Assembly: GCF_019693215.1 (NCBI RefSeq)
Contig: NZ_CP081183.1
Coordinates: forward strand, 1,987,226 to 2,051,225
Source of the DNA: Salinarchaeum sp. IM2453
GTDB taxonomy: Archaea > Halobacteriota > Halobacteria > Halobacteriales > Salinarchaeaceae
DNA length: 64,000 nt
Direction: 5' to 3'
Part shown: one piece after another, positions 36,913 through 46,314 of the stretch
How positions within the stretch are numbered: position 1 is the first letter of the stretch
Layout of the letters: each line of letters begins with the position of its first letter
Position numbers and translations under genes: made by a program
Notes under the pieces: model-generated
What the model saw: the letters and a program-made list of their open reading frames with translations, nothing else
The model's database searches: none
What the model was told of the DNA's origin: nothing

Positions 36913-38466
36913 ATGGCTACAGATCCTGAATTTCCAACTGACCGTCCAAGTCAAAGCAGCGATGAGCCTGTTCCTCCCGAGGAGTATAGTGAGAGTGAGA
37001 AAATTGACTATGATGTCACACCTCCAAAAACGGATTATAAATCATTATTCAAGCACTTTGGACCCGGTATTTTACTGATGATGACTGGCGTGGGAACAAG
37101 CCACATTATTACTATACCCACCGCTGGTGGTCGATTCGCATGGGCTCTTCTATGGGCAATTCCGCTAGCCTATGCATTCAAGTGGTACGGTTTTCGGATG
37201 GCATACCGTTTCACGTATGCAACCGGAAAAAGCATCATGGATGCGATGAATGCAACGAAGCGTAAGTGGGCTTTGTGGTATGTTTTGTTAGTGTTTGGTG
37301 TACAAATGTTAATTGGCCAAGCAGGACGGTTGATTGCTGCAGCTGCTGTACTTTATTTTGCCTTTACAACGCCCGGATTTGTCGATCTGCCAATGTGGGT
37401 GTATGCTACAGGGATCGGCGGGATTAGCGTTGGTATTATTCTATCGGGTAAGTACCGCCTTGTTGAGTGGGTTGTCAAGATAATAATGGTGGTCGTTGTC
37501 ATTGCGTTTGTGCTTGTCTACTTTGTCAACCCGCCTCCAGCTGATGCGTATGTTAATTTCTTCGTGATCGATGTGCCTCCTGAAGCATGGCTTGTCTTCG
37601 CTGCAAGCATCGGGCTTCTCCCAACCGGAATTGACGTCTCATTACAAGCATCTGAGTGGGGCTTAGCGAAAAAGAAAGGTCTACCTCGCCTGCGTCGCCG
37701 TCTTGAACAGGAGGGAGCAGCAAAAGATATCGATAAATTCAACGGTTCAACTGATGTCAGTGATTTCACCGTTGATTACGATCAGCTTTCTGACCGAACA
37801 CGCGAATACTGCTACCGATGGTTCAGAATCGGCGTCCGTGACTTTGACTTTAGTAATGTTGTTTCGCTTATACTCGCCATAATTATTATGTCCCTATCGG
37901 TTGTTTGGATGTATCCGTCAGATGTTGAAGGAGAAGCTGCGATTGGAGAGATAGCTGCTATTTTTACTGAATCCGTTGGATCATGGATGATGGCTCTCTT
38001 CCTTCTCGGCGCGTTTGGAATTACATTCTCTACACAGTTCAACTATTTCGATGGTCGTCCACGAGTTATCTCTGCCGCTTGTCGAAACCTGTTCCCTAGA
38101 GTATCTAAATGGTCTGGAGTCGAGAACTCACCAGACGGAGCATCACGCGTCTGGTATTCTGAGTTGAATATCTGGCGTATTTCAATGATGTTGTCCTTTG
38201 TTGGTGCCGTTGCAATCATCGCTGGTGTTCCTGAACCCGTATTTGTTGTCTTGGTTGCCTCAGCACTTGCAGCCGTGATTGCACCAATTATCTTCTTCTT
38301 TAACTTCTGGTTCTGCCTGAAAGCAATCCCGGAAGACAGTGAGTTTTATCCAGCACAATGGGAGATTTACTTCACGTGGATCAGCCTCATTGTATTTACC
38401 TTCTTGATCATTCTTTCACTGCTAGCAATGTTCGATTTGATCGGTTGGATCATCCCAAATGCATAA
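36913..38466 (+). CDS. Nramp-related membrane transporter, non-canonical (second copy)
   Basis: A 517-residue paralogue of the 412-1782 protein, with about eleven to twelve helices and a 50-residue acidic N-terminal tail. Segment 1 reads 'MTGVGTSHIITIPTAGG' where Nramp metal transporters have DPGN; segment 6 reads 'LLPTGIDVSLQASEW' where they have MPH. It has a larger cytoplasmic loop after segment 6, rich in Arg and Lys ('LPRLRRRLEQEG'). GAAGGTGA six bases before the ATG suggests a leadered mRNA, unlike many genes here. A small membrane-anchored protein gene follows 18 bases after the stop. Substrate unknown. Confidence 0.75.
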   Translation: MATDPEFPTDRPSQSSDEPVPPEEYSESEKIDYDVTPPKTDYKSLFKHFGPGILLMMTGVGTSHIITIPTAGGRFAWALLWAIPLAYAFKWYGFRMAYRFTYATGKSIMDAMNATKRKWALWYVLLVFGVQMLIGQAGRLIAAAAVLYFAFTTPGFVDLPMWVYATGIGGISVGIILSGKYRLVEWVVKIIMVVVVIAFVLVYFVNPPPADAYVNFFVIDVPPEAWLVFAASIGLLPTGIDVSLQASEWGLAKKKGLPRLRRRLEQEGAAKDIDKFNGSTDVSDFTVDYDQLSDRTREYCYRWFRIGVRDFDFSNVVSLILAIIIMSLSVVWMYPSDVEGEAAIGEIAAIFTESVGSWMMALFLLGAFGITFSTQFNYFDGRPRVISAACRNLFPRVSKWSGVENSPDGASRVWYSELNIWRISMMLSFVGAVAIIAGVPEPVFVVLVASALAAVIAPIIFFFNFWFCLKAIPEDSEFYPAQWEIYFTWISLIVFTFLIILSLLAMFDLIGWIIPNA

Positions 38467-38947: not shown

Positions 38948-39364
38948 TTAGCGAATGACTGTAACTGGAACAGCTGATCGACGAATAACTTTTTCCGCCA
39001 CACTTCCGAGCAGCACTCGGTCAATTCCTTTACGACCGTGACTTCCGATAAATATATGATCGATGTCGTTGTCCATTGCGAACTCTACAATTGTGTTGTG
39101 TGGTGTGCCTTCGGCAAACTCGTATTTGGCATCAAATCCGGCATCGTTGAACTGCTGTTTAAATTCAGCAAGGTGGTCTTCGATTTCTTCCTGTTCGGCT
39201 GCCTCCTGATATACGCGGGTCTGTGTAACTGGAATTCCCGGTGCGACCACATGTAGTAGAGTAATTTTTGATCCCCAAAAATTATCCAGTGCAAACCTGA
39301 CTGCTGCTTGACAGGGGTCTGAGTCGTCCACTGCGATCAACGCATGGGCATCATCTGCTGACAT
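38948..39364 (-). CDS. Universal stress protein, single UspA domain
   Basis: A 138-residue UspA protein with the complete ATP-binding pattern G-x2-G-x9-G-S ('GSHGRKGIDRVLLGSVAEKV'). The N-terminus 'ALIAVDDSDPCQAAVRFAL' is the canonical beta1-alpha1 unit. It should bind ATP as a dimer in the cytoplasm. It is convergent with the membrane-anchored protein gene and divergent from the GAPDH gene, whose AT-rich promoter region separates them. Confidence 0.9.
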   Translation of the reverse strand: MSADDAHALIAVDDSDPCQAAVRFALDNFWGSKITLLHVVAPGIPVTQTRVYQEAAEQEEIEDHLAEFKQQFNDAGFDAKYEFAEGTPHNTIVEFAMDNDIDHIFIGSHGRKGIDRVLLGSVAEKVIRRSAVPVTVIR

Positions 39365-39592
39365 ACAGAATCTATATGTTGTACTCAGTTTTATTATAAA
39401 GACTTTTGGCTCTGATCAAAATTTATCATGTTCCTTTATGATGAATAGATCAGAGACTATTGAATTTTATCCACTGTATTTTTATACTAGTATACGAGAA
39501 GTCTATGTCATTATTAAATGTATTGGTTGGTGTAATACGTACATTGATCCTCGATTATTCATGTAAGTATATGATAGTCACAACTCACACGT

Positions 39593-40585
39593 ATGATTAA
39601 TGTAGGTGTAAACGGATACGGAACAATTGGAAAACGAGTCGCTGACGCTGTTGCAGCCATGCCGGACATGTCTCTTGTCGGGATCAGCAAAGCGAGTGCT
39701 GGCCACACAGCAGATGCAGCCCACTCACGTGGTTACGATATCTATCCTCCGGATGGACGACAAGAAGATTTTGCACAAAGCGGAATTAACACGGCAGGGG
39801 TTGTCGACGATATGATTAAACAAAGCGATGTTGTTGTCGACACCACCCCGGCTGGAATGGGTGCTGAATATCGGCCCATTTATGAGGAGCACGATACACC
39901 TGCAATCTTTCAAGGTGGAGAACCCTCTGAGGTCGCCCCAGTAAGCTTCACTGCTCGGGCAAATTATAATGAGGCAATTGGAGAAGACTATGTTCGAATT
40001 GTATCTTGTAATACTACTGGGCTAAACCGCCTCTTTGCTCCATTGCTTGAAGAATATGGGATTGAACGGGCACTTGTCACGCTTGTCAGGTGCCGAGGCG
40101 AACATGCTGTGATTTCTGCTGATCCGGTTAATCCCCCATCTCACCACGGTCCAGATGCGCTTGAAGTGCTTCCTGAGATCGGCGACATCCAAACGATGGG
40201 AATGCGGGTCCCAACAGTTCGCCATCACTTCCATACAGTCAATGTTGAGCTTGAGGATCCTCCGTCTGAGTCTGACATAATTGAGTTTCTCTCTTCAGAA
40301 TCACGACTTCATCTTATCGATGAAGACTTAGACATGAACTCTGGATGGGACTTACAGGAATTCGCTCTGGACCGGGGGCGCGATCGTATGAATCTCTATC
40401 AGAACCAGATATTTGAGGGCTCAGTTACTGTTGAAGGGAATCAATTATACCTGTTCCAGTCAATTCATCGTGAGAGCGATGTCATACCAGAGAACATCGA
40501 TGCAATCCGAGCGATAACCGAAGGAATCGACAAAGAAGAGAGTATTGCACGCACCAACGAAGTGCTTGAAGTCGGAGGGTTCTAA
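39593..40585 (+). CDS. gapB: Type II glyceraldehyde-3-phosphate dehydrogenase (archaeal)
   Basis: A 330-residue archaeal-type phosphorylating GAPDH. Residues 1-20 carry the nucleotide-binding loop 'GVNGYGTIGKRVADAV'; the catalytic cysteine is C139 in 'VSCNTTGLNRL'; 'VRCRGEHAVISADPVNP' and 'VPTVRHHFHTVNVEL' are conserved substrate-domain segments. It interconverts glyceraldehyde-3-phosphate and 1,3-bisphosphoglycerate, in haloarchaea mainly in the gluconeogenic direction for the type II enzyme. The next gene, a PEP-synthase-like half protein, starts three bases after the stop, so the two are tightly coupled. The symbol used varies between genomes (gap, gapB). Confidence 0.88.
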   Translation: MINVGVNGYGTIGKRVADAVAAMPDMSLVGISKASAGHTADAAHSRGYDIYPPDGRQEDFAQSGINTAGVVDDMIKQSDVVVDTTPAGMGAEYRPIYEEHDTPAIFQGGEPSEVAPVSFTARANYNEAIGEDYVRIVSCNTTGLNRLFAPLLEEYGIERALVTLVRCRGEHAVISADPVNPPSHHGPDALEVLPEIGDIQTMGMRVPTVRHHFHTVNVELEDPPSESDIIEFLSSESRLHLIDEDLDMNSGWDLQEFALDRGRDRMNLYQNQIFEGSVTVEGNQLYLFQSIHRESDVIPENIDAIRAITEGIDKEESIARTNEVLEVGGF

Positions 40586-40588
40586 TAG

Positions 40589-41965
40589 ATGTCTCAACAC
40601 CAGTCTTCCCGTGAGCAACATGAAGACTCTGATAATCTCCTTTGCCAAGGTCTAGGTGCGAGTCCTGGCGAAATAAGTGGTAAGGTTACCATTGTAAACG
40701 ATCTTGAGGAAACAGATCAGGTAACTGAACAAGATATTATTGTTACAGAGATGACGATGCCGGAAATGGTTCCCGCAATGAAACGGGCAAGTGGCATTGT
40801 CACCAATCAAGGCGGGATTACGTGTCATGCCGCGATTGTCTCTCGTGAGCTAGGAGTTCCAGCAATTGTCGGTACAGGAGACGCAACAACTGAGCTAGAG
40901 GATGGGCAAACAGTCGAAATCGACGGTGACCGGGGCACAATTAAGAAGGCAGAAGCTTCGGACGTACTCTCCTCGTCTAGCGAAACTGATGACACAAGTC
41001 AGACATCTAATTCATCAGAAAGCACCTCCTCATCAACAGCTACCACGGACCCAGCTGTTCCCACAACTACAGCAACCGATGTGTTTGTCAACGTTTCAAT
41101 TCCAGAAGCAGCCGAAAGGGCTGCAGCAACAGACGCAGACGGTGTCGGTCTTCTCCGGGTAGAACATATCCTGCTATCATTGCAAAAGACGCCGGCAAAG
41201 TACGTTGAGGACCACGGCGCTGATGAATTCGTTGATCAAGTTGCACAGGAAGTAGAACGAGTTGCAGAAGCGTTTTATCCACGTGAAGTCCGAGCTCGGA
41301 CAATGGACGCACCAACAGACGAATTAGCAGAGCTTGAAGGCGGAGAGGCCGAACCCCACGAACATAATCCAATGCTTGGCTGGCGAGGCATCCGACGAAG
41401 TCTTGATGAGACTTCACTAACAAAGCTTGAGCTTCGTGCGTTTAAACAGGTTCGTGACAATGGATACGACAACCTCTATGTAATGTTCCCCCTTCCAAAT
41501 GATCCTGAAGAGGTTGTTGAAGCACGTGAGCTAATGCGAGAAGTTGGGATTAATCCCGACGAAACTAAATGGGGTGCAATGATAGAAACCCCAGCAAGTG
41601 TCCGCCAAATCGATGAAATTATTGATACCGGTATTGATTTCGCTGCATTAGGTACAAACGATCTTATTCAGTATATCTTAGCTGTTGACCGGAACAACGG
41701 CAACGTAGCAGATGTCTTTGATGAGATGCACCCAGCAGTGCTAGAAGCTATGAGTGAAGTCATTGAAGCCTGCAATGAGAATGATGTGCACACAACGATT
41801 ACTGGACAGGCCGGATCTCGACCAGAAATGGCTCGATTCTTGGTTAATGAGGGCATCTCTTCTGTATCAGCAAATATAGACGCAGTGGATACCGTTAGAG
41901 AGGTCATTGGACGAGCGGAACAAAAACTGATCCTTGATGAGGTCCGGGCAGAACGACTTGACTAA
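40589..41965 (+). CDS. PEP synthase-like protein lacking the ATP-grasp domain
   Basis: A 458-residue protein homologous only to the C-terminal two thirds of PEP synthase/pyruvate-phosphate dikinase. Residues about 18-120 are the swivelling phosphohistidine domain with an intact 'QGGITCHAAIVSRELGVPA' site (His80). A Ser/Thr-rich acidic linker (about 125-163) follows, then the PEP/pyruvate TIM barrel with 'NPMLGWRGIRRS', 'GAMIETPASV' and 'ALGTNDLIQYILAVDRN'. The N-terminal ATP-grasp part is absent, and the catalytic cysteine of the barrel (normally ICGQ) is replaced by Thr405 ('TITGQAGSRPE'). It is linked to GAPDH by a three-base gap and to an aldolase 22 bases downstream. It may be a regulator, a partner of a separate ATP-grasp protein, or an enzyme with changed chemistry. 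Confidence 0.82.
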   Translation: MSQHQSSREQHEDSDNLLCQGLGASPGEISGKVTIVNDLEETDQVTEQDIIVTEMTMPEMVPAMKRASGIVTNQGGITCHAAIVSRELGVPAIVGTGDATTELEDGQTVEIDGDRGTIKKAEASDVLSSSSETDDTSQTSNSSESTSSSTATTDPAVPTTTATDVFVNVSIPEAAERAAATDADGVGLLRVEHILLSLQKTPAKYVEDHGADEFVDQVAQEVERVAEAFYPREVRARTMDAPTDELAELEGGEAEPHEHNPMLGWRGIRRSLDETSLTKLELRAFKQVRDNGYDNLYVMFPLPNDPEEVVEARELMREVGINPDETKWGAMIETPASVRQIDEIIDTGIDFAALGTNDLIQYILAVDRNNGNVADVFDEMHPAVLEAMSEVIEACNENDVHTTITGQAGSRPEMARFLVNEGISSVSANIDAVDTVREVIGRAEQKLILDEVRAERLD

Positions 41966-41987: not shown

Positions 41988-42857
41988 ATGCGTGGCACAG
42001 GTGTACCGATCACGACTCCATTCGACTCATCTGGAGATATACACGAAACAAAGCTTGTTGATGTTGCTGACTGGTTAATGGAGAGCGGCGTTGATTTTCT
42101 TGTTCCTACCGGATCGACGAGTGAAGCTGAACTCCTTACAGCAGAAGAACGCCATCAGGTTACAAAGATTGTTGCCGAGACTTCATCTGTTCCTGTTCTC
42201 GCTGGCGCTGGTCATCCCGGTAGAAAGGAAACACTACAGCAGATATCAAAAGCCGTGAGTGCTGGAGCAGATGCTGTTCTGATTGTTACTCCTTTTTATT
42301 ATGAGCATTCTCAATCTGATCTCATTACTTACTATCGATCGATTGCGGATGCCTCCTCTCTTCCTGTCTATCTATATAATGTTCCAGTCTATACTGACAC
42401 CTCGCTCACTCCCTCTACAGTTCAGACTCTATCAAATCATAGGAATATCCACGGAATCAAAGACTCAAGCGGTGACCTTCAGCAACTAAAGCGAATTATC
42501 ACCTTGACTAATGATTCATTTGATGTTCTTGTTGGGAGTGGCGGAATCTATGCTGATGCTCTTCTCAACGGAGCAGATGGGGGGATTCTTGCCCTTGCCA
42601 ATATAGCTCCTGAACTCACAACGGCGATTTACACAGCTGTATCAAATGATAATGTTCAAAAAGCGATTGGCTTGAATAGACAAGCAGCGGCGTTAAATCA
42701 CGCAATCACACGTCAACACGGAGTTGCTGGACTGAAACACGCCATGCAATATCGAGGCATAGACGCCGGTGGTATTCGGTCGCCACATACTTCGGTTACC
42801 GAGCGTGATGGAAAAGAGATACAAGATATCTTAGACCAGACTCCTATGATAAAATGA
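41988..42857 (+). CDS. DapA/NAL-family aldolase, possible KD(P)G aldolase
   Basis: A 289-residue class I aldolase/lyase. The Schiff-base lysine is K158 ('HGIKDSSGD'), the catalytic tyrosine Y130 ('VYLYNVPVYT'), and the carboxylate-binding loop is 'GSTSEAELLT' (GTTGE in true DapA). The family includes dihydrodipicolinate synthase, N-acetylneuraminate lyase and 2-keto-3-deoxy-(phospho)gluconate aldolase. GSTSE rather than GTTGE and the position after GAPDH and a PEP-synthase-like gene favour KDG/KDPG aldolase over lysine biosynthesis. It probably belongs to the same operon. Substrate is inference. Confidence 0.8.
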   Translation: MRGTGVPITTPFDSSGDIHETKLVDVADWLMESGVDFLVPTGSTSEAELLTAEERHQVTKIVAETSSVPVLAGAGHPGRKETLQQISKAVSAGADAVLIVTPFYYEHSQSDLITYYRSIADASSLPVYLYNVPVYTDTSLTPSTVQTLSNHRNIHGIKDSSGDLQQLKRIITLTNDSFDVLVGSGGIYADALLNGADGGILALANIAPELTTAIYTAVSNDNVQKAIGLNRQAAALNHAITRQHGVAGLKHAMQYRGIDAGGIRSPHTSVTERDGKEIQDILDQTPMIK

Positions 42858-44649: not shown

Positions 44650-46314
44650 ATGCTACACACTACTGGTGACCTCCTTTCTATCGATGTCGGGGCTTGTTCA
44701 ACGACGGATATTGATATCGACTCACTTACCTCCAAGTATATCGGTGGTAGAGCGCTTGCAACTCGATTAGCCCACGAACGAATTCCGTTTGATGCGGATC
44801 CGATGGGACCAAAGAATCGACTTTTCTTCACGACCGGTCCACTGCAGATGTCACAGATGAGCTTTACTGGACGGATGAATTGCACTGGTATATCTCCTCT
44901 TACTGATGGTCTGTTATCTAGCAACGCTGGTGGATTCTTATCTCGTAACTTTGCTAGTACGGGTTACGCTGCAGTTGAGTTAGCTGGCAGTAGTGATGAA
45001 CTTCTTGTTATTCACGTTCGAGATGATGAGGTCCAATTTGAGCCAGCCCATAGCCTCCATGGTGCAACCGTTCCTGAGACACTCGAATATCTTGAAGCAG
45101 AACGGGATATTTCACCTGATCAAACGACAGTTATCGGGCCAGCTGGTGAGAATGCCGTTCGATTTGCTTCAATTATGACATCTGGTGAGCGAGCCTTTGG
45201 ACGAGGAGGTCTCGGTGCTGTTATGGGTGCAAAAAATGTGAAGGCGGTCACCTTTGCTGGCGACCGTGCTCCATCAATTGAGATCCCATCAATCCAACAG
45301 GAGATCCACAGAGAAGCAGCAACTGACGACCATATTATGAAAGACCAGGGGACTGTCTCAGTTATGGACCTAGCTAATGAGATCAATGGTCTTCCGTCAT
45401 ACTACTTTTCAGAACAATCCTTTGATGGAGTCGAAGAAATCAACGGTGCCGCAGTCGCAGACAAAAAGTACAAAAAAGGAACCTGCTCAACGTGTGCTTT
45501 TGCATGTAAACTCCCAACGCGTGATGAAGAAACTGGCATTGAGACAGAGGGACCGGAATTTGAGGTGGCAATGGCACACGGGTCAAACTCGGGCGTCGAT
45601 GAAATTGTTTCAGTAATGAAATCAAATGACCTTTGCGATTCCTATGGGCTTGATGCCATCTCTGCAGGCAACACGATTGCTGCTTACCTTGCCGCTGAAG
45701 ACGAATTCGGCAACACTGACTTAATTCATCGGTTACTTGAAAAAATCGCCCACAGAGAAGGAATTGGTGATAAATTAGCTGAGGGAATTGATCGAGTCCA
45801 CGAGGACCTTGGCGTTGAGAACTGGTCCGTAAAAGGTCTTGATTTTGCTGCACATGAAGGGCGAGTATTACATGGCCAAGGACTTTCCTATGCGGTTGCT
45901 AACAGAGGTGCTGATCACATGTATGCAACGTTTTATTCTGTTGAGTATCCACTTGCTTCAGAACACAAAGCAATGGATCCAGAAGGAACTCTTGGTAAAG
46001 CATCCCGACTTGTCCGTAGAGAGAATTTGATGGCTGTCAACGACTCAGGTGTTCTTTGTAAATTCGCCCGTGATTACATGACTCCAGACCGGTATGAAGA
46101 ACTGTTTGCGTGTGAGTTCGACACACTTCTCAATGTTGGCGCGAAGACGGTCACCCTCGAACGGCATTTCAACAATCAGCGCGGGTTCGATGCTAGTGAT
46201 GACCGTCTTCCATATGACCTCCCTGATTTAAACGAAGCCATCAATGAGTACTATACAGAACGCGGATGGAATGCTGGAGTTGTTCCGGATAGCCAGTTAC
46301 CGGCTGATCTGTAG
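44650..46314 (+). CDS. aor: Aldehyde:ferredoxin oxidoreductase family (tungsten/molybdenum pterin) enzyme
   Basis: A 554-residue AOR-family protein, slightly short of the usual 600-640. The N-terminal pterin domain shows 'YIGGRALATRL', 'TGPLQMSQMSFTGRMNCTG' and 'MTSGERAFGRGGLGAVMG'. The Fe4S4 ligands are C279-x2-C282-x3-C286 ('CSTCAFAC') and C470 ('GVLCKFA'), and the pterin motif is 'CDSYGLDAISAGN' (329-341). The family oxidises aldehydes (or glyceraldehyde-3-phosphate in GAPOR) with ferredoxin as acceptor. Its closeness to GAPDH and an aldolase makes a sugar-derived aldehyde plausible. It stands alone, with an upstream TATA candidate, and is followed by an IS-end repeat. Confidence 0.85.
   Translation: MLHTTGDLLSIDVGACSTTDIDIDSLTSKYIGGRALATRLAHERIPFDADPMGPKNRLFFTTGPLQMSQMSFTGRMNCTGISPLTDGLLSSNAGGFLSRNFASTGYAAVELAGSSDELLVIHVRDDEVQFEPAHSLHGATVPETLEYLEAERDISPDQTTVIGPAGENAVRFASIMTSGERAFGRGGLGAVMGAKNVKAVTFAGDRAPSIEIPSIQQEIHREAATDDHIMKDQGTVSVMDLANEINGLPSYYFSEQSFDGVEEINGAAVADKKYKKGTCSTCAFACKLPTRDEETGIETEGPEFEVAMAHGSNSGVDEIVSVMKSNDLCDSYGLDAISAGNTIAAYLAAEDEFGNTDLIHRLLEKIAHREGIGDKLAEGIDRVHEDLGVENWSVKGLDFAAHEGRVLHGQGLSYAVANRGADHMYATFYSVEYPLASEHKAMDPEGTLGKASRLVRRENLMAVNDSGVLCKFARDYMTPDRYEELFACEFDTLLNVGAKTVTLERHFNNQRGFDASDDRLPYDLPDLNEAINEYYTERGWNAGVVPDSQLPADL

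Follow-up and report, generated by a model that had tools for sequence, protein, structure and literature searches.

In the PEP synthase family the barrel domain binds PEP or pyruvate, and a Cys residue moves the C3 proton as the two are interconverted. PTS Enzyme I also joins a phosphohistidine domain to a PEP barrel, with no ATP-grasp domain. In PpsAB, HpeHI and CreHI the swivel subunit is separate from the ATP-grasp subunit, and HpeH, which consists of a swivel and an acceptor domain, moves phosphate between two substrates without its ATP-grasp partner (PMC12167813). The mycobacterial protein VadK (Rv1127c) is a PPDK-derived histidine kinase that autophosphorylates as a kinase (PMC13400623). 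In haloarchaea, PEP synthase and type II GAPDH both serve gluconeogenesis (PMC7746861, PMC10817205). Here we describe a locus, found in a 64,000-nucleotide stretch of DNA from Salinarchaeum sp. IM2453 (the window), in which a paralogue of PEP synthase (PPS') follows a paralogue of type II GAPDH (GAPDH').

PPS' has the swivel-barrel order, the phosphohistidine motif and the PEP/Mg residues of archaeal PEP synthase (pyruvate, water dikinase, EC 2.7.9.2; NF005057, TIGR01418; 8a8e, 9dae); however, it lacks ATP-grasp, carries Thr in place of the Cys, scores under the equivalog cut-offs and is partnered with GAPDH'. Its predicted fold is similar to that of Enzyme I (2hwg), but both the HPr-binding insert and the Cys are missing. 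Like the swivel subunits of PpsAB, HpeHI and CreHI it stands apart from ATP-grasp, yet those systems have an ATP-grasp partner and an RPH-type acceptor domain, whereas PPS' has a PEP-utilizers_C barrel. VadK resembles PPS' as a dikinase derivative recruited to a new, partly regulatory role, which for PPS' is a possibility only; unlike VadK, PPS' has no ATP-grasp domain.

Architecture and relatives of PPS'

The PPS' reading frame starts with ATG, has boundaries of exactly 40589-41965 and is organized as follows:

40589-41965, + strand: PPS', a stand-alone swivel and barrel PEP synthase paralogue of 458 aa, without ATP-grasp and with C405T
40637-40951, + strand: phosphohistidine swivel domain (residues about 17-121), with GGITCHAAIVSREL
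40964-41056, + strand: disordered Ser/Thr linker (residues about 126-156), pLDDT < 50
41069-41923, + strand: PEP-binding barrel (residues about 161-445)

An earlier note on this DNA had described a PEP-synthase-like protein with an intact phosphohistidine site at His80, intact barrel motifs, a Ser/Thr low-complexity linker, no ATP-grasp domain and a Thr where the catalytic Cys should be, and on all of these points, including the residue numbering, our analysis agrees. A Pfam search placed the PEP-utilizers mobile domain at residues 46-116 and PEP-utilizers_C at 157-443, and PPDK_N (ATP-grasp) was absent from the protein. His80 (codon 40826-40828) lies inside GGITCHAAIV, and Thr405 (ACT, codon 41801-41803) aligns with the Cys of ICGQ. 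The linker, predicted to be disordered, is present in every stand-alone member, and its length and sequence differ between relatives. Against the NCBIfam PEP synthase equivalogs PPS' scored 483 of 598 bits (NF005057) and 457 of 740 bits, in both cases under the cut-off, and its alignment to solved PEP synthases covered their C-terminal half. An AlphaFold model built from a 43-sequence alignment (mean pLDDT 83.3, pTM 0.81) found its closest PDB entries in the C-terminal domain of PEP synthase (8a8e), PPDK and phosphorylated Enzyme I (2hwg, TM 0.70).

Relatives were sought in 84,980 species genomes, with a single-protein query that reaches close relatives only, and in 392 haloarchaeal genomes. 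The stand-alone forms comprise 13 distinct haloarchaeal sequences of 448-474 aa, carried by the window genome, all eight sampled genomes of a genus taken to be Haloplanus, two genomes taken to be Haloquadratum walsbyi J07HQW1 and J07HQW2, and one MAG each from Haloplanus and Halobacteriales. Thr405 (ITGQ) is found in 13/13 of them, as against Cys in 76/76 full-length PEP synthases compared; His80, R190, R237, E333, N357, D358 and R368 are invariant in both groups, and the swivel motif HAAIVSREL is kept in all 13 stand-alone forms. Nine positions are fixed differently in PPS' and the full-length enzymes, and six of these (S353A, F354L, L387A, I388M, S403T and C405T) fall within residues 353-405, a stretch that includes the catalytic segment. 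Such clustering near the Cys segment, as read from the alignment, points to an altered pocket and not to decay. The stand-alone forms, about 54-60% identical to haloarchaeal full-length PEP synthases, make up a single clade (100/100) that is sister to haloarchaeal PEP synthases, in a tree with flagged long branches from which the genome's own full-length enzyme was left out, which makes the clade itself more secure than the depth at which it splits off. When 393 genomes of the phylum were scanned for the signature TTITGQ, an exact-match pattern that is not exhaustive, it occurred in the window and in Haloplanus only. Of the 392 haloarchaeal genomes, 389 contained a match to PPS'; the remaining three, all from a single genus, contained none, which suggests that they lack PEP synthase.

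Purifying selection is strong on both the PPS' and the GAPDH' gene, with dN/dS of about 0.04-0.15 in close pairs. The idea that PPS' is a pseudogene or the product of a frameshift or an assembly error found no support and is scarcely conceivable, being ruled out by the 13 genomes that share its architecture and its Thr and by the low dN/dS. The earlier note had named an assembly error, or close homologues that keep the N-terminal domain and the Cys, as outcomes that would overturn its description; neither was found.

The same note had suggested that PPS' might be half of a split enzyme, that is, a PEP synthase or two-component dikinase with its ATP-grasp subunit encoded elsewhere. Split dikinases do exist, in PpsAB, HpeHI and CreHI (PMC12167813). 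However, no PPDK_N outside full-length PPS was found in ten relatives. The genome of the window encodes a complete PEP synthase (818-aa open frame) and one extra PPDK_N in a larger, unlinked protein, which was likewise not found in the ten relatives. The suggestion is thus not supported, and we consider a split enzyme very improbable. The larger protein (581280-581885 in the genome, open frame of 1048 aa) has a weak PPDK_N match of 57-60 bits, preceded by a stretch that resembles a nucleotidyltransferase by eye.

A swivel and barrel without ATP-grasp also resemble Enzyme I minus its HPr-binding insert, as the match to 2hwg illustrates, and PPS' could on these grounds be an Enzyme I-like component of a PTS. 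Against this, HPr was found neither in the genome of the window nor in 8/8 Haloplanus, in a search for which the Haloferax volcanii control was positive, and the Cys that acts as proton donor in Enzyme I is also missing from PPS'. A role in a PTS is accordingly a distant prospect.

The GAPDH partner and its junction with PPS'

The gene preceding PPS' and the boundary between the two are as follows:

39593-40585, + strand: GAPDH', a divergent second type II GAPDH paralogue of 330 aa, with SCNTTG kept and RCRGEHAV in the RRGGDPxxxxRGPI region
40583-40591, + strand: junction TAA-TAG-ATG, made up of the GAPDH' stop, a second stop and the PPS' start in one frame

GAPDH' scored 412.7 bits against NCBIfam NF003251 (type II GAPDH, gapII), over the cut-off of 185, and the catalytic SCNTTG motif is retained. 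In contrast, 8 residues of the RRGGDPxxxxRGPI region, which is invariant in 16/16 canonical copies, are missing in 13/13 GAPDH' sequences, and the fixed changes of the latter include M211H, P264D, C272Q and Q293R. The GAPDH' sequences form a clade of their own (100/100). All 11 pair-bearing genomes searched have two type II GAPDHs, GAPDH' and a canonical copy elsewhere, whereas each of five comparison genomes without the pair has one copy over the cut-off. In both Haloquadratum genomes the SHHGPD motif of type II GAPDH is changed to SYHG[IP]D in GAPDH', so that the first His is dispensable in this paralogue.

According to the earlier note, PPS' starts three bases after a type II GAPDH. The spacing proved correct, with both genes in the same frame, and the GAPDH is the divergent paralogue and not the canonical copy. 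The note had also proposed a look at other haloarchaea for Thr405 and for the GAPDH linkage; the linkage recurs as regularly as the Thr, with PPS' immediately downstream of GAPDH' in 13/13 loci. In the other 12 loci, too, PPS' shares the reading frame of GAPDH' and opens right behind a stop codon. This junction is consistent with translational coupling, and the two proteins are probably co-translated. Pairwise distances of GAPDH' and PPS' correlate (r = 0.92), a correlation that shared species history alone would also give. We conclude that GAPDH' and PPS' are a co-inherited functional pair derived from two gluconeogenic enzymes.

As a control, the upstream regions of the GAPDH genes were scanned with a consensus motif for sites like those of TrmB, a regulator of gluconeogenesis. 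None was found within 200 bp of GAPDH' in 12 relatives, and the GAPDH' gene of the window gave one match with 1 mismatch; of the canonical gapII promoters, several have a site that fits the motif nearly or exactly.

Candidate chemistry of the pair

PPS' may quite possibly be an ATP-independent phosphohistidine transferase that acts in partnership with the altered GAPDH' and whose substrate is not pyruvate; this is the explanation that we tentatively prefer. His80 on the swivel domain would carry a phosphoryl group to or from a PEP/pyruvate-like compound, which the barrel would bind at its intact Arg/Glu/Asn/Asp site. Because the use of pyruvate needs a proton to be moved at C3, the loss of Cys405 and the remodelling of the pocket suggest that this compound is probably not pyruvate but an acid, such as a 2-hydroxy acid, that needs phosphoryl transfer only. 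The Cys is lost but the phosphate/carboxylate ligands and the phosphohistidine have stayed, and the simplest remaining chemistry would be to pass a phosphoryl group between His80 and either a PEP-like acid or a 2-hydroxy acid. HpeH offers a precedent for phosphate transfer of this kind in the absence of the ATP-grasp partner (PMC12167813). The phosphoryl group would come from, or go to, a phosphorylated metabolite or the product of GAPDH', and not ATP; as a donor for His80 the GAPDH' product would be an attractive candidate. It is from the comparisons given above that we infer the phosphorylation of His80, its substrate and donor, and a pathway or complex shared by the two proteins.

A specific sub-case of this explanation is a relay charged by redox chemistry, in which GAPDH' would make an acyl phosphate from an aldehyde and phosphate, and the phosphoryl group would pass to His80 and on to an acid substrate in the barrel, without ATP. 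In reverse, PEP would be drawn through an acyl phosphate to an aldehyde. Such a relay would account for both the dispensable ATP-grasp domain and the constant GAPDH partner, and gene pairs of a kinase and an acyl-phosphate reductase are familiar from ArgB-ArgC and ProB-ProA. However, we know of no PPS-type swivel domain that is driven by an acyl phosphate, and the case for the relay is purely inferential; we regard it as rather unlikely.

The main rival to the transferase is a regulatory pseudoenzyme. PPS' would then bind PEP or pyruvate without turnover, either as a sensor or by co-assembly of its barrel with the full-length PEP synthase, and GAPDH' would likewise be regulatory. Only the acid/base residue has been lost and the ligand residues are kept, as this rival would have it, and a pseudoenzyme, too, would be expected to have lost the Cys. 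Co-assembly is made easier to envisage by the large size of archaeal PEP synthase assemblies, with 24 subunits in Staphylothermus (PMC8100219), by the multimeric state of solved PEP synthase C-terminal domains and by the presence of a full-length PPS in the genome of the window and in all ten relatives searched. On the other hand, the swivel domain and HAAIVSREL are as strictly conserved as in active enzymes, which would be needless for a purely barrel-based sensor, and GAPDH' retains its catalytic Cys motif. We take a regulatory pseudoenzyme to be a serious possibility, though one on the doubtful side. Of the roles that the earlier note had proposed, a phospho-carrier and a pyruvate/PEP sensor are thus both still plausible.

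Diverged copies of two gluconeogenic enzymes have here been brought together in one small unit, with the use of ATP and the residue thought necessary for making PEP discarded. The pair would be a phosphotransfer pathway without ATP or a sensor made from two central enzymes, and it suggests that archaeal carbon metabolism includes a module for phosphate transfer or regulation that has not been described before.

A promoter element shared with a transporter, and other neighbouring genes

Two genes upstream of the pair in the window have counterparts, by family, near the pair in relatives:

36913-38466, + strand: Nramp_1-family transporter without DPGN or MPH, 1.1 kb upstream of the pair, 23% identical to the relatives' co-regulated transporter
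38948-39364, - strand: universal stress protein A family (Usp) gene, divergent from GAPDH'

In 11 of 12 relatives the region downstream of the pair contains a Nramp_1-family transporter gene in opposite orientation, as well as a Usp gene. The relatives' transporter has neither DPGN nor MPH, the motifs of metal-transporting Nramps. All ten pair-bearing relatives that were searched (10/10) have a close orthologue of it (72-100%), as against 0/25 genomes without the pair. Upstream of GAPDH' a conserved element, MATGCAAAAYMTG, is present in 12/12 relatives, and in ten of the scanned loci the transporter, too, has a copy of the element ahead of it. Every Haloplanus genome (8/8) contains the pattern WMATGCAAAANNTGYR at exactly two sites, one before the pair and the other before the transporter. 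In H. ruber, where the transporter is about 48 kb from the pair, the element is still present, with a score of 20.9 on a weight matrix for which scores of 18 or more occur at 2 of 1.56 million background positions. In the two Haloquadratum genomes the weight-matrix scan likewise detected the element both at the pair and at the transporter, but the strict pattern WMATGCAAAANNTGYR missed the site at the pair, matching that at the transporter and a single unrelated position. As judged from its occurrences, the ATGCAAAA / WMATGCAAAANNTGYR element in Haloplanus is a two-promoter regulon, and the pair and the transporter are apparently switched together in the relatives.

This tie to a transporter promoter, and the lack of a TrmB-like site at GAPDH' in relatives, unlike several canonical gapII genes, count against a regulatory pseudoenzyme; together with the conservation of the swivel motif, the transporter link would modestly favour a transferase. 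A transferase is less easily reconciled with two other observations. No conserved catabolic gene accompanies the trio of GAPDH', PPS' and transporter, which leaves none to name the substrate, and the window genome has neither the promoter element nor a close orthologue of the transporter, so that the transporter part of the argument rests on the relatives. In a version of the redox relay that we consider distinctly unlikely, the co-regulated Nramp-superfamily transporter would bring in a 2-hydroxy or 2-oxo acid and the barrel would phosphorylate it; if true, this would be a new pathway, with a new charging route for swivel domains of the dikinase type.

The component families are already known, but the open-access literature searched contained no PEP synthase paralogue without ATP-grasp and Cys that forms an operon with a type II GAPDH paralogue lacking a loop and has a promoter element in common with a transporter. 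With three genes and two promoters per genome the system is small, and it is directly testable in Haloplanus, a genus with cultured strains.

In the window genome neither the weight-matrix scan nor the pattern WMATGCAAAANNTGYR found the promoter element, a resemblance at 39560-39573 being weak and not significant, and no close orthologue of the relatives' transporter was found, the nearest relatives being 23-26% identical. The association of the transporter at 36913-38466 with the pair is here only suggestive. The Usp gene is near the pair in most relatives too, with 25-29% identity to that of the window where matched.

Downstream of PPS', the gene at 41988-42857 had been labelled a KDG/KDPG-type aldolase, a label that remains unproven. 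It belongs to the DHDPS/NAL superfamily, with dapA as its best match (188.5 bits, cut-off 206) and 116 of 390 bits against Arch_KDGaldase, and is under every equivalog cut-off; none of the relatives' neighbourhoods was found to contain it. Further along, 44650-46314 encodes a protein of the aldehyde:ferredoxin oxidoreductase (AFOR) family that scores far under the GAPOR and PRK09849 cut-offs. Considered as pathway partners, the DHDPS-family and AFOR genes were set aside, as they are not among the neighbours common to the relatives. Another Nramp_1-type transporter without DPGN and MPH lies at 412-1782 of the window, one of three Nramp_1-type transporters genome-wide. Since this protein and the one at 36913-38466 lack both metal-binding motifs, their cargo may be something other than a metal.
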